64,000 nucleotides of DNA from assembly GCF_007066085.1 (NCBI RefSeq), contig NZ_CP041405.1, positions 5,797,501-5,861,500 on the forward strand. The letters are read 5' to 3'. This stretch comes from Paenibacillus thiaminolyticus. Its GTDB lineage: Bacteria; Bacillota; Bacilli; Paenibacillales; Paenibacillaceae. Positions 27,844 to 34,447 of this stretch are shown piece after piece. Each line of letters starts with the position of its first letter. The first letter of the stretch is position 1. The notes beneath the pieces were generated by a model. It was not told the DNA's origin, ran no database searches, and saw nothing but the letters and a program-made list of their open reading frames with translations. Made by a program: the position numbers and the translations under genes.

Positions 27844-27873
27844 TTGACAATCGTCTTGTCCGTTTGGTATTTT
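27844..27873 (+). promoter_or_regulatory. Sigma-A promoter of the hrcA operon
   Basis: TTGACA (27844-27849) and TATTTT (27868-27873) are 18 bases apart. The CIRCE operator starts 11 bases downstream. Confidence 0.8.
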
Positions 27874-27884
27874 TGTAGTGACGG

Positions 27885-27911
27885 TTAGCACTCGACGATG
27901 ATGAGTGCTAA
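27885..27911 (+). promoter_or_regulatory. CIRCE operator (HrcA binding site)
   Basis: TTAGCACTC-N9-GAGTGCTAA is a perfect match to the consensus. It lies between the promoter and hrcA, so HrcA should repress the whole operon (hrcA, chaperonin, grpE, dnaK, dnaJ). Confidence 0.98.
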
Positions 27912-27944
27912 CGGATATCCTACTACATCTAAGGAGGGATGCGC

Positions 27945-28973
27945 ATGTTGACGGAACGCCAGCGTATGATTTTGAATGCTATCATAGATGATTATATCCG
28001 TTCTGCGGAACCGGTCGGATCTCGCAGCATTTCGAAGCGGGGCGATGTGAATTTCAGCCCGGCTACGATTCGCAACGAGATGTCCGATCTGGAAGAGCTC
28101 GGTTATCTGGAGCAGCCGCACACGTCAGCAGGGCGCATTCCATCTCATAAAGGGTACCGTTATTATGTCGATCATCTCGTTCGTCTTGATCGTCTGTCCA
28201 GCGAAGACGTCTTGCGGTTGAAGTCGGTCTTCGCGGAGAAGATAACAGCGATGGAAGAGATTGTGCAGCATACGGCATCGATTTTGTCTCAATTGACCAA
28301 TTATACGTCAATCGCGCTGGGGCCGGAAGTTTTCGACGCCTCGCTTCGTCATTTTCAGCTGCTTCCGCTGAATGAGAATACGGCGGTCGCGATTGTCGTG
28401 ACGAGCACGGGCCATGTCGAGAACAAGACCGTCACGCTGCCGGAGGGCGTCTCCGCTTCCGAGTTGGAGACCGTGGTTAACCTGCTGAACGCCAAGCTTG
28501 TCGGCGTTCCTCTATATAAGCTGCGTGCGCAGCTGTATAACGAGATTGGACAGGAAATGAGCCAATATGTGTCGCATGTCCAGGAGCTGATGGCGCTCGT
28601 GGAAAGTGTTTTGGCCGACAATAACGACCATCGGCAAGTCTATTTGAGCGGGGCCACGAACATGCTGACCCAGCCTGAATTCCAGGATGTCGACAAGATT
28701 AAGACGATCTGGGAGCTGCTCGAAGAGACGCCGGCCTTGATCAAGGTCGTGGGCTCTGCCCCTTCCGGTATCCAGGTCCGCATCGGCCAAGAGAATGTGC
28801 ATGCCGCGATTACGAATTGCAGCATGATTACTGCAACCTATTCGGTTGACGGACAGACGCTGGGTACGCTCGGCATTCTGGGACCGACCCGGATGGAGTA
28901 TGCGAAGGTCATCAATCTGATGAACCATCTGTCCGGCCAAATGGCGGTATTCATGCATCAATGGTATAAATAA
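27945..28973 (+). CDS. hrcA: Heat-inducible transcription repressor HrcA
   Basis: A 342-residue repressor of class I heat-shock genes. The N-terminal winged helix (MLTERQRMILNAIIDDYI, ATIRNEMSDLEELGYLEQPHTSAGR) is followed by the GAF-like core and C-terminal IGQENVHAAITNCSMI region. The ATG at 27945 is preferred because AAGGAGG is 8-9 bases upstream; an ATG at 27939 is too close. It autoregulates through the perfect CIRCE. The next gene is the chaperonin rather than grpE. Confidence 0.96.
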   Translation: MLTERQRMILNAIIDDYIRSAEPVGSRSISKRGDVNFSPATIRNEMSDLEELGYLEQPHTSAGRIPSHKGYRYYVDHLVRLDRLSSEDVLRLKSVFAEKITAMEEIVQHTASILSQLTNYTSIALGPEVFDASLRHFQLLPLNENTAVAIVVTSTGHVENKTVTLPEGVSASELETVVNLLNAKLVGVPLYKLRAQLYNEIGQEMSQYVSHVQELMALVESVLADNNDHRQVYLSGATNMLTQPEFQDVDKIKTIWELLEETPALIKVVGSAPSGIQVRIGQENVHAAITNCSMITATYSVDGQTLGTLGILGPTRMEYAKVINLMNHLSGQMAVFMHQWYK

Positions 28974-28990: not shown

Positions 28991-30574
28991 GTGACTCAAG
29001 GACAAGGACAAGTACAGGAGACCGATGAGCGCTATGCGACGCTCCTGAATAATGCGAATGCCGTCCGGGCCCTCAGCTCGGCTGTCGAAGGCACGCTTGG
29101 CCCGAAGGGGCTGGATGTTATGCTGGTCGGCGCCAATGGCGACGTCGTCATTACCAATGACGGCGTCACCATTTTGGAGAAGATGGATGTGACCCATCCG
29201 GCCGCCCGGCTGCTCATCCAGGTGGCGCGCGCCCAGCAGAGCGAGGTCGGCGACGGCACGACGACGGCGACGGTACTGGCCGGTGCGCTTGTGCAGGAAG
29301 GCGTCGCCCAAGTGACGAGAGGCGTGCCCGCGGCGAAGGTCGTGAACGGGATGCTTGAGGGCATTCGTGTCGCGGCCGCCCGGCTGGCGGAACGCGCGCT
29401 GCGGCTCGAAGGCTGGAACGACCCGAAGCTGCACCGCGCGGTACATATCGCGGGCCGGGAGCAGGCCGACATCGTCCGGCTCGTGCTGGAGGCGGGACAG
29501 GCGGTAGGCTGGGAGCAGCTTCAGGATCCGGCCTACCGGCTCGCCGAACAGATTGTCGCGCACGAGAAGGCGAGCAATGAATGGTTCCACGGCGTGCTCC
29601 TGAAGCAGAAGCCGCTGCAGCGGGATTGGCTGCCGGAACGGACCGGATGCCGCGTCCTTATCCTGCAGGATGCGCTCGAACCGGACACGCTCGACGAGCA
29701 GCTGCTGACGACCGAAGCCGGCTTCCAGCAGTATATGGCTCACCGCTCCGCCTTCATGGAGCGGCTGCAGCGTCTTCACGAGCTGGGGGTCGGCTTCCTC
29801 GTGCTGGAGCGAGGCCTTCATCCGGAAGCGGAGCAATTTTGTCTCGACCATGATATGATGGTCGTGCAGCGGGTCAGCCGCGAAGATATTATGCGCGTCT
29901 GCCGCCTTACGGGCGGCAAGCCGTTGAAGCGGGCCGCCCTGGCCAAGGATGCGGCGGTGCTGGAGCCGCTGCTCGGCGGCACCGCCTGCGTGCGCTACGA
30001 TGAGCGCCTGGAGCGCGTGCGGCTGTACGCCCCGCAGACGGCGCTCAGCTCAGACGGCCCGGGCGGCACGCCGGAGCCGGCGGGCATGCGCCGCGCGCAG
30101 GTGACGCTCATCGTGGGCGCGAGCACGCGCGAGGTCGTGGGCGAGCGGGCGCGCATCGCCCAGGATGCCGCCGCGGCGCTTCAAGCCGCGATCCAGAGCG
30201 GCGTTCTGCCGGGCGGCGGCACGACGGAGCTGGCGCTCTCCTACATGCTAGAGCGCTACAGGGAGACCGTCCGCGGCATGGAAGCCTTCGGCGTGGCCGC
30301 GGTAGCGCAGGCGCTGCGCAAGCCGATGGCCCAGATTGTGCTGAACGCCGGCTTCAACCCGCTGGAGAAGCTGGAGGAAGCGCGGGCGGCGCAGACCGCA
30401 TCGGGATCCGATGCCATCGGCATTGACTGTGACAGCGGAGCGCTGCTTGATTATGGCGACGCAGGCATCGTCGACCCGGCTGCCGTGAAGCTCCATGCGC
30501 TGCGGGCGGCCGGCGAAGTGGCCGCCGCCGTGCTGCGGATTCACACGGTCATTAAGATGAAGCCGGAAGCGTAA
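28991..30574 (+). CDS. Archaeal-type (group II/III) TCP-1/Cpn60 chaperonin
   Basis: A 527-residue chaperonin whose motifs are thermosome-like rather than GroEL-like: EGTLGPKGLDVMLV, DVVITNDGVTILEKMDVTHPA, SEVGDGTTTATVLAG (GDGTT at 87-91). The candidate catalytic Asp392 is in ERARIAQDAA, GGG is at 408-410, and the C-terminus has GIVDPAAVKLHALRAAGEVAAAVLRIHTVI. The apical region (about 200-330) is long enough to hold a built-in helical lid, and there is no GGM tail. Similar proteins (group III chaperonins, described in a few Firmicutes) are encoded in dnaK operons. GTG start, GGGAGGGGG upstream. The last third is very GC-rich. Confidence 0.93.
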   Translation: MTQGQGQVQETDERYATLLNNANAVRALSSAVEGTLGPKGLDVMLVGANGDVVITNDGVTILEKMDVTHPAARLLIQVARAQQSEVGDGTTTATVLAGALVQEGVAQVTRGVPAAKVVNGMLEGIRVAAARLAERALRLEGWNDPKLHRAVHIAGREQADIVRLVLEAGQAVGWEQLQDPAYRLAEQIVAHEKASNEWFHGVLLKQKPLQRDWLPERTGCRVLILQDALEPDTLDEQLLTTEAGFQQYMAHRSAFMERLQRLHELGVGFLVLERGLHPEAEQFCLDHDMMVVQRVSREDIMRVCRLTGGKPLKRAALAKDAAVLEPLLGGTACVRYDERLERVRLYAPQTALSSDGPGGTPEPAGMRRAQVTLIVGASTREVVGERARIAQDAAAALQAAIQSGVLPGGGTTELALSYMLERYRETVRGMEAFGVAAVAQALRKPMAQIVLNAGFNPLEKLEEARAAQTASGSDAIGIDCDSGALLDYGDAGIVDPAAVKLHALRAAGEVAAAVLRIHTVIKMKPEA

Positions 30575-30632
30575 GGCTCCGGCTTCCCGGAGCAGGAAGA
30601 TAGAAGTTTGACTACATAAGGAGGTGCAAGGA

Positions 30633-31226
30633 TTGAACCCGGAACAAGAAGAGAAGATCGAGAGAAACGATCAGGTGGACTCGGAGGCTGTGGATACAGC
30701 CGACGTTGAACATAACCAAGAGGCCGCGGAGACATCCGAAGCAGAAGGCAAGACAGCGGAGGAAGCACAGGCAGAGACGGCAGAGCTGAAGATGGCCCGC
30801 GCGCAAGCAGAGGAGCTTCAGCAGCGCCTGCTGCGTGCCCAAGCGGACTTCGATAATTTCCGCCGCCGCACGGTGAAGGAGAAGGAAGAACTGGCACAGT
30901 ACGCATCGTCCAAGCTGGTGACCGAGCTGCTTCCGGTGCTCGATAACTTCGAGCGCGCCTTGGCCGCAGCCCAGACAGGCAGCGAGGAGCAATCGTTCGT
31001 CAAAGGCGTGGACATGATCTTCCGCCAATTCACGCAGGTGCTGGAGCAGGAAGGCGTGAAGGCGATGAACGCTGTAGGCGAGCCGTTCAACCCGGAATTC
31101 CACCAGGCGATTATGCAGGTGGAGTCGGAAGAGCATGAGGAAGGCATCGTTGTGGAAGAAGTCCAAAAAGGCTATATGCTCAAGGATCGGGTGCTTCGCC
31201 CGGCCATGGTCAAGGTAAGCGGCTGA
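30633..31226 (+). CDS. grpE: Nucleotide exchange factor GrpE
   Basis: A 197-residue DnaK co-chaperone that speeds ADP release. An acidic N-terminal tail leads to a long coiled-coil helix (ELKMARAQAEELQQRLLRAQADFDNFRRR), then the beta domain with VGEPFNPEFHQAIMQVES and KGYMLKDRVLRPAMVKVS. The start is TTG at 30633 because AAGGAGG (30618-30624) lies 8 bases upstream; a GTG at 30624 overlaps that site. Part of the CIRCE-controlled operon. Confidence 0.95.
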   Translation: MNPEQEEKIERNDQVDSEAVDTADVEHNQEAAETSEAEGKTAEEAQAETAELKMARAQAEELQQRLLRAQADFDNFRRRTVKEKEELAQYASSKLVTELLPVLDNFERALAAAQTGSEEQSFVKGVDMIFRQFTQVLEQEGVKAMNAVGEPFNPEFHQAIMQVESEEHEEGIVVEEVQKGYMLKDRVLRPAMVKVSG

Positions 31227-31274: not shown

Positions 31275-33137
<1,863 letters not shown>

Positions 33138-33185: not shown

Positions 33186-33322
33186 CCTGTTTACGATGAA
33201 GAATGTGGGACAGCATGGCGTTCGCGCCGTGGTGCATCAACCCGGCAAGCGATCCGCTCTGACGGCACGCAGTAGAGCGGATGCATGGAACCGGGCTTTC
33301 AAGTTGCAATGGGGGTGGAAGA

Positions 33323-34447
33323 GTGGCGGAAAAGCGAGATTATTATGAAGTGCTCGGCGTAAGCAAAGGAGCAGGCGAGGATGAGATCAAGAAGGCCTAC
33401 CGCAAGCTTGCGCGTCAATATCACCCTGACGTGAACAAGGCAGCGGACGCAGAAGAGAAGTTCAAGGAAGTCAAGGAAGCGTACGATGTGCTTGGAGACG
33501 ATCAGAAGCGGGCGATGTATGACCAATACGGGCATGTAGATCCGAATCAAGGCATGGGCGGAGGCGGGTTCTCCGGCGATTTCAGCGGATTCGGCGACAT
33601 ATTCGATATGTTCTTCGGCGGAGGAGGACGCACCCGCGATCCGAATGCGCCGCAGCGAGGCAGCGATCTGCAGTATACGATGCAGATTGAATTCAAGGAA
33701 GCCGTCTTCGGCAAAGAGACGGATATTACGATTCCACGGACAGAGCAGTGCGACACCTGCTTCGGGACCGGGGCCAAGCCTGGCACGAAGCCGGATACGT
33801 GCTCGGCCTGCCATGGATCGGGACAGCAGGAAGTCGTTCAAAATACGGCGTTCGGCCGCATGGTCAACCGGCGTACTTGTACGGTATGTCAAGGCAAAGG
33901 CAAAATTATTCGCGAGAAATGCGGCACCTGCCATGGCAACGGGTCCGTGAAGAAGCAGCGTGTCATTCATGTGCGCATTCCGGCAGGCGTGGACGATGGA
34001 GCCCAGCTGCGCATGAGCGGAGAAGGCGAGAGCGGATTGCGCGGCGGTCCGAACGGCGACTTGTACATTGTCATCCGCGTGAAGTCGCATGAATTTTTCG
34101 AACGCGACGGCGACGACATCTACTGCGAGGTGCCGCTCACATTCGCTCAGGCGGCGCTCGGCGACGAGATTGAGATCCCGACGTTGACGGAGAAGGTCAA
34201 GCTCAAAATTCCGGCCGGCACGCAGACAGGGACCTTCTTCCGGCTGCGCGGCAAAGGCGTTCCGCGTCTGCGGGGTCATGGGCAAGGCGATCAGCATGTC
34301 AAGGTTGTCATCGTGACGCCGACGAAGCTGAATGACGAACAGAAAGAGCTGCTTCGACAGTTCGCAGCCAGCGGCGGCGAGCATACGAACGGCGGGCACG
34401 AGGAATCGTTCTTCGATCGGATGAAGCGGGCGTTCCGGGGGGACTAG
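33323..34447 (+). CDS. dnaJ: Chaperone protein DnaJ (Hsp40)
   Basis: A 374-residue class A J-protein. The J domain has the HPD motif in [11 protein letters not shown]-rich region (about 76-105) follows, then four CxxCxGxG zinc motifs ([32 protein letters not shown]) and the C-terminal substrate domains. The GTG at 33323 is chosen because GGGGGTGG precedes it and the family starts at [11 protein letters not shown]. It stimulates DnaK ATPase. A strong terminator follows, closing the heat-shock operon. Confidence 0.96.

Follow-up and report, generated by a model that had tools for sequence, protein, structure and literature searches.

A Group III chaperonin gene in the hrcA-dnaK heat-shock operon of Paenibacillus thiaminolyticus

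What purpose might a second chaperonin, encoded within the dnaK operon, serve in a bacterium that already has GroEL and GroES? The question is raised by a stretch of 64,000 nucleotides from Paenibacillus thiaminolyticus (contig NZ_CP041405.1, positions 5,797,501 to 5,861,500), the whole of which is called here the window. Its gene cpnIII (28991..30574, forward strand) encodes a Group III chaperonin of 527 residues, as indicated by the open reading frame (ORF) listing, Pfam, a PDB sequence search, alignments, an AlphaFold model and a tree. The reading proposed here, to which a probability of roughly 0.85 is given, is that the product is an ATP-driven Group III folding chamber with a lid of its own, made from the operon hrcA-cpnIII-grpE-dnaK-dnaJ behind a CIRCE (controlling inverted repeat of chaperone expression) operator, beside GroESL. 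Chaperonins of this kind are already known from some bacteria, and the Paenibacillus gene is a well-defined further member.

Integrity and classification of the gene

The ORF begins with a GTG codon after a purine-rich ribosome site and continues for 527 codons, uninterrupted to its stop. The protein matches the Pfam family Cpn60_TCP1 over the entire model (positions 1-490 of 490, E 3.4e-98). The thermosome-like signatures quoted in the first-pass annotation, which was made from the letters alone, are present in it, and the GGM tail is absent, as had also been stated, the C-terminus being KMKPEA. The ratio of nonsynonymous to synonymous substitution rates (dN/dS) in the nine nearest pairs within the genus is 0.10-0.16 for cpnIII, 0.06-0.14 for hrcA, 0.11-0.23 for grpE and 0.01-0.10 for the N-terminal part of dnaK, several more distant pairs being saturated at silent sites. 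The gene is therefore intact and under purifying selection. Its GC content had been described as high in the 3' third; this third is the richest (70.3%), but the first two are also high (66.7 and 65.7%), compared with 53.1% for hrcA and 57.4% for the window. Since cpnIII is richer in GC than hrcA in 20 out of 20 relatives measured, the high GC content characterizes the gene across these relatives and is not a local oddity.

A scan with NCBIfam models listed 19 families, none of them at its curated cut-off. The best model is that of an archaeal thermosome subfamily, with 241 bits against a cut-off of 671.1 (alpha, 237.9 against 450; beta, 232 against 400). GroEL models reach 159 bits at most, and TIGR02348 gives 135.8 against a cut-off of 582.1. 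The nearest PDB chains by sequence are 9rwq (551 bits) and 5x9u (403 bits); the resurrected group II ancestor gives 226 bits and the other PDB chains among those listed no more than 182. The first of these, ACIII, is a reconstructed Group III ancestor (Severino et al. 2025, PMC12696368) and, although the closest PDB sequence, it is devoid of the long loop of the window protein. In its sequence record, the 9rwq chain is labelled ACII, in disagreement with the name ACIII used in the structure title and in the paper. The nearest named protein, with 94% identity, is from Paenibacillus popilliae; it belongs to the "TCP-1/cpn60 chaperonin family protein" entries of Paenibacillus, which evidently represent the same gene under a database name only, and no study of them was found in the literature searched.

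The position of the protein was analysed with a mixture-model tree of 32 rows, composed of 16 Group III (the window protein included), 10 archaeal and 6 GroEL sequences. Group III, archaea and GroEL form one clade each, with supports of 100/100, 99/95 and 100/100, respectively, and the window protein falls in Group III. The branches that meet where GroEL joins this tree are long, and the place of the window protein beside its genus and family is independent of that join. Two alternative placements apart from the other Group III rows were rejected by the approximately unbiased (AU) test, one with GroEL (p-AU 3.4e-6) and one with the archaeal rows (p-AU 1.3e-6). A quick tree of 82 rows agrees with the smaller one, its Group III clade containing 72 rows with a support of 99 in the Shimodaira-Hasegawa-like approximate likelihood ratio test (SH-aLRT). 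The loci sampled for it were one in two of the class, one in three of the archaea and 10 from relatives, plus those of named genomes (L069-L121), omitting L072, L081, L086, L087, L096, L114, L118 and L119. The 41 rows from Bacilli form one clade (SH-aLRT 99), outside which lies a metagenome-assembled genome (MAG) titled Aneurinibacillus (L110). The cpnIII of L110 groups beside Peptococcaceae rows and its other operon genes match those of the window more weakly than do those of the named Aneurinibacillus L083; for both reasons the title of L110 may be wrong.

These results bear on two other explanations of the gene. According to one of them, cpnIII would be a group II archaeal thermosome received by recent horizontal transfer out of an archaeon, as the nature of the best NCBIfam model might suggest. 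However, its score far under the cut-off, the rejected archaeal placement, the missing sensing loop and four missing lid residues, and the agreement of the cpnIII tree with those of hrcA plus grpE and of groEL (see below for these last points) make this origin very improbable. Both the rejected placement and the absent loop weigh against a recent event, whereas Group III as a whole may go back to an ancient transfer at its root. According to the other, cpnIII would be a divergent GroEL paralogue of Group I that uses the genomic GroES, with which the common superfamily and the bits obtained by GroEL models are compatible. The distance from all GroEL cut-offs, the rejected placement with GroEL, the built-in lid, the lack of a GGM tail and the presence of a groEL in the same genome render it extremely unlikely. 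By its sequence, the window protein is a Group III chaperonin that carries the tested hallmarks of the Carboxydothermus prototype. Residues, tree and model agree on this assignment, already made in the first-pass annotation, whose further label "archaeal-type" was loose, because Group III is a branch separate from the archaeal thermosomes.

Residue hallmarks and the predicted working cycle

The prototype of Group III is Ch-CPN of Carboxydothermus hydrogenoformans (PDB 5x9u/5x9v; An et al. 2017, PMC5635000), identical to the window protein at 216 of 503 aligned residues. As described in that paper, Group III chaperonins have no nucleotide-sensing loop and make use of Arg155 and Asp373, together with Asp56; Leu237, Phe243, Tyr246 and Phe253 form the lid tip, and the rings are joined by a ball-and-socket contact of Leu439. 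Equivalent positions were examined in an alignment of 91 group III rows (over 430 residues each) and 27 archaeal rows, which are related and in part near-identical, so that the counts are not independent. Arg156 (29456..29458), equivalent to Arg155 and by analogy a contact of the gamma-phosphate, is at the site of the group II nucleotide-sensing loop; it is present in 91/91 group III rows, and the position is mixed in archaea. Asp392 (30164..30166) aligns with the catalytic Asp373 and is Asp in all 91 rows, in line with its earlier designation as a candidate catalytic residue. Asp57 (29159..29161) corresponds to Asp56, which in the prototype lies near the gamma-phosphate with Asp373 (PMC5635000), and is conserved in 88 rows. 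The remaining three have Ala: L107, an Armatimonadetes MAG that reads TNAGFTIL, and two further group III rows. The ball residue, Leu458 (equivalent to Leu439), is invariant in the 91 rows.

The lengths of two regions separate Group III from the archaeal proteins. The sensing region comprises 19 residues in the window protein and in 91/91 group III rows, and 25-27 in the 27 archaeal rows, while the lid stretch has 50 residues in the former and 54 in the latter. Archaeal group II chaperonins (thermosome, Mm-cpn) share with the window protein the fold, the built-in lid and the catalytic Asp, but they possess the sensing loop and the four additional lid residues and belong to a different clade; they also have prefoldin as a partner, according to PMC5635000. 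The predicted lid of the window protein spans residues 225-265 (29663..29785), where the AlphaFold model places two helices, 236-240 (mean predicted local distance difference test score, pLDDT, of the 10-residue block 79) and 242-264 (block means 87-94). The structure prediction thus shows lid-forming helices in an apical domain that had been judged long enough for them. The lid residues Leu239, Phe245, Tyr248 and Phe255 vary more, being found in 84, 87, 75 and 77 of the 91 group III rows, respectively.

The window protein therefore resembles Ch-CPN in the conservation of Arg155, Asp373, the four lid hydrophobic residues and Leu439, in the absence of the sensing loop, in the equal length of the lid stretch and in the location of the gene in a dnaK operon. 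It differs from it in two socket residues, in the length of a loop of the intermediate domain (37 residues) and in its host, since Paenibacillus is no thermophile of the prototype's kind. This loop has 20 residues in 79/91 group III rows and is clearly longer (27 or more) in few of them only. It contains a Gly/Pro-rich insert (residues 351-366; 30041..30088) located between two strands and modelled with low confidence (pLDDT < 50). The insert is highly variable, and among the aligned Paenibacillus proteins it is long only in the nearest relatives of the window protein, being short or absent elsewhere.

A working cycle can be proposed from these features. In the open ring, the hydrophobic tips of the lid would capture misfolded clients, which DnaK may deliver. 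ATP binding would tilt each subunit about the ball-and-socket joint of Leu458, closing the lid without GroES, with Arg156 on the gamma-phosphate and Asp57 and Asp392 serving for hydrolysis. Delivery by DnaK is suggested because no prefoldin was found: Prefoldin_2 had no match in the genome of the window, and the four archaeal controls were positive. DnaK has also been put forward by others as the delivering partner (PMC5220055), and it seems the likeliest one for this step, which is speculative. Ch-CPN is reported to consist of 16 subunits, to refold proteins and to show little cooperativity (PMC5635000). By analogy with this prototype, the window protein may form two rings of eight subunits, in register, with ATPase and refolding activities, its independence of co-chaperones, ring symmetry and activity all being carried over from Ch-CPN.

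The hrcA operon, its slot and its predicted regulation

The chaperonin gene occupies one place in nearly all the loci examined. The order hrcA-cpnIII-grpE was found in 101 of 109 loci (some genomes being counted twice), including all 29 class loci fetched and 27/27 loci of relatives. Among the named loci, hrcA lies upstream on the same strand in 51 of 53; the two exceptions are L078, which holds just 596 nucleotides upstream of cpnIII, and L079, which shows no operon genes. The latter, a MAG titled "uncultured bacterium", encodes a Group III chaperonin and has no match to hrcA/dnaK operon genes within 6 kb. The full order lepA-hemW-hrcA-cpnIII-grpE-dnaK-dnaJ is present in 34 of the 53 named loci, the others being cut by a contig end or missing a match. 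From the hrcA stop to the cpnIII start there are -4 to 186 nucleotides (median 36; 105 loci). No match to lepA/hrcA/dnaK-type neighbours was detected in any of the 27 archaeal loci. Of the 33 relatives devoid of cpnIII, 30 were examined; all of these have grpE next after hrcA, without a chaperonin match (0-548 nucleotides from the hrcA stop to the grpE match), and 28 of them show a CIRCE.

In the window, the gene order is hrcA-cpnIII-grpE-dnaK-dnaJ, with 17 nucleotides between the hrcA stop and cpnIII and 49 between cpnIII and the listed start of grpE. All the genes are on the forward strand and were identified by the ORF listing and Pfam: the heat-shock repressor gene hrcA (27939..28973; PF01628, PF03444), grpE (30624..31226), dnaK, which encodes HSP70 (31302..33137), and dnaJ (33281..34447). 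The neighbourhood is accordingly the one that the first-pass annotation had recognized as a dnaK operon. The listed GTG of grpE at 30624 overlaps its own ribosome site; a TTG at 30633 fits better and is the likelier start. Upstream of hrcA there is a perfect CIRCE operator, TTAGCACTC-N9-GAGTGCTAA (27885..27911, forward strand), the predicted binding site of HrcA, with 0 mismatches and no occurrence in 100 shuffles of the window. It is preceded by a SigA-like promoter candidate, TTGACA-18-TATTTT, with TG ahead of the second hexamer (27844..27873, forward strand); it fits the consensus at 10 of 12 positions, and such a scan alone is no evidence of function.

In the complete genome (6.6 Mb, one contig), the CIRCE pattern with up to three mismatches occurs at four sites, compared with two for a reversed control pattern. 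These sites are upstream of hrcA (0 mismatches), upstream of the Hsp90 gene htpG (0), upstream of groES (1), and another with three mismatches. Since the hrcA operon, groES and htpG are all preceded by CIRCE, cpnIII is predicted to be induced jointly with Hsp70, GroE and Hsp90, a prediction that supports the co-regulation with Hsp70 proposed earlier. The perfect site directly upstream of htpG (L035:1501-1560; C1:4871309 in the genome of the window) is the reason why HtpG seems to belong to the HrcA regulon in this genome. In B. subtilis, htpG is not known to be under the control of HrcA.

The proximity of hrcA and cpnIII in nearly all named loci, and their short spacing, suggest a different role, in which the chaperonin would chiefly tune HrcA. 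It would fold or stabilise the repressor in the way that GroE serves HrcA in B. subtilis and Campylobacter, and would so become a second stress sensor. GroE is indeed described as stimulating HrcA (PMC8533110), and three Bacillota MAGs (L071, L072 and L095, two of them titled Fermentithermobacillaceae) keep hrcA-cpnIII with no grpE or dnaK match between cpnIII and dnaJ. However, being neighbours in an operon does not show that two products interact, all the cpnIII-less relatives examined keep hrcA, most of them with CIRCE, and groEL is available for the same job, so that this role is considered unlikely. Nor does cpnIII stand in for GroEL. A search of the rest of the genome found single copies of groEL and groES, and 29 of the 30 cpnIII-bearing genomes searched also gave a groEL, indicating that cpnIII is an addition and not a replacement.

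Distribution, inheritance and significance

Among relatives, the gene was found in 27 of 60 genomes (own genome, frame-split copy and incomplete copy counted), namely in 19/19 of the genus, 3/18 of the rest of the family and 5/23 of the order. In larger samples, which also include the own genome and use a threshold of E <= 1e-70, it is present in 58 of 394 genomes of the family (5/19 genera) and in 61 of 398 of the class (38/146 genera). A scan of named genomes gave at least 53 Group III loci (L069-L121) in the best 80 matches, the other 27 being archaeal. The titles of these 53 include Paenibacillus and other Bacilli, Pelotomaculum- and Syntrophomonas-type Clostridia, Sporomusa, and one Armatimonadetes MAG. 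The earlier mention of a "small set of bacteria" is consequently out of date: An et al. 2017 already counted 195 Group III members, mostly from extreme environments (PMC5635000), among which Paenibacillus may be included. In one Paenibacillus draft genome (G010; L119/L029), whose record gives low coverage, cpnIII is split by a frameshift, and in one genome of the order (G041; L030) it is incomplete; each case can be real decay or an assembly error.

Several points weigh against the reading of cpnIII as a folding chamber. The literature searched gave no activity, oligomer or expression data for a Paenibacillus member. The AlphaFold model is that of a monomer, in which both ends and residues 31-90 (block means 48-66) are poorly predicted. 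In the socket, Val112 and Met430 are identical to Val111 and Met411 of the prototype (as residues, not as the contact itself), but Lys109 is replaced by Arg110 (Arg in 61/91 rows) and Tyr414 by Phe433 (Phe in 55/91), both changes being conservative. In addition, relatives outside the genus often lack the gene, one of the five order copies is incomplete and one genus copy is split, which means that cpnIII is dispensable in many lineages. This patchy presence, the two damaged copies and a rate of evolution higher than that of the N-terminal part of DnaK would suit a holdase that binds clients but does not complete a folding cycle, and that mesophiles are in the process of losing. Nevertheless, the ATPase residues are kept, dN/dS remains at 0.10-0.16 and each of the 19 sampled genus genomes carries the gene; a holdase of this type is thus judged quite unlikely, slightly more so than a role centred on HrcA.

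The inheritance of the chaperonin was studied by comparing its tree with those of its neighbours and of groEL. For 65 loci (leaving out those with too short cpnIII, HrcA or GrpE, as well as L113, L118 and L119), 29 of 35 well-supported cpnIII splits recur as well-supported splits of the hrcA plus grpE tree and one is in conflict, compared with means of 0.1 common and 34.9 conflicting when tips are shuffled; if support is ignored, 41 of 62 splits are common and 21 conflicting. The comparison with the unlinked groEL covers 29 of 30 genomes, since G135 gave no GroEL match at 1e-150, and uses one of the two groEL genes of G082. It yields 8 of 13 supported splits in common and no conflicts, the groEL tree having just 9 supported splits, and 10 of 26 in common with 16 conflicting when support is ignored. 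This agreement indicates that cpnIII has travelled with its operon and, so far as groEL shows, with the genome, and it appears to have been inherited with the operon, in one slot, within Bacilli. Mapping its presence on the HrcA tree requires at least seven changes. We infer an early presence and repeated loss within Paenibacillales.

A more ambitious version of this history can be formulated. Group III would have been already in the hrcA heat-shock operon of an early Bacillota ancestor, descending vertically in one slot with many losses, and would be kept in mesophiles for the operon's own circuit, where it would take clients from DnaK and modulate HrcA, so that one repressor would receive input from two chaperonins. 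As a whole, this scenario is regarded as unlikely. Group III has been described mostly from extreme environments, and its origin as a relic or by ancient transfer has been argued both ways (PMC5635000, PMC12696368). The genus Paenibacillus, with the gene in 19/19 sampled genomes (one of them split), groESL alongside it in the sampled species and CIRCE in the species of the window, offers a more tractable system for asking what use a cell has for a second chaperonin, whether DnaK supplies this chaperonin with clients and whether there is cross-talk with HrcA. The fixed slot and the agreement between trees bear, in turn, on the choice between old inheritance and repeated transfer of Group III chaperonins within Bacillota.
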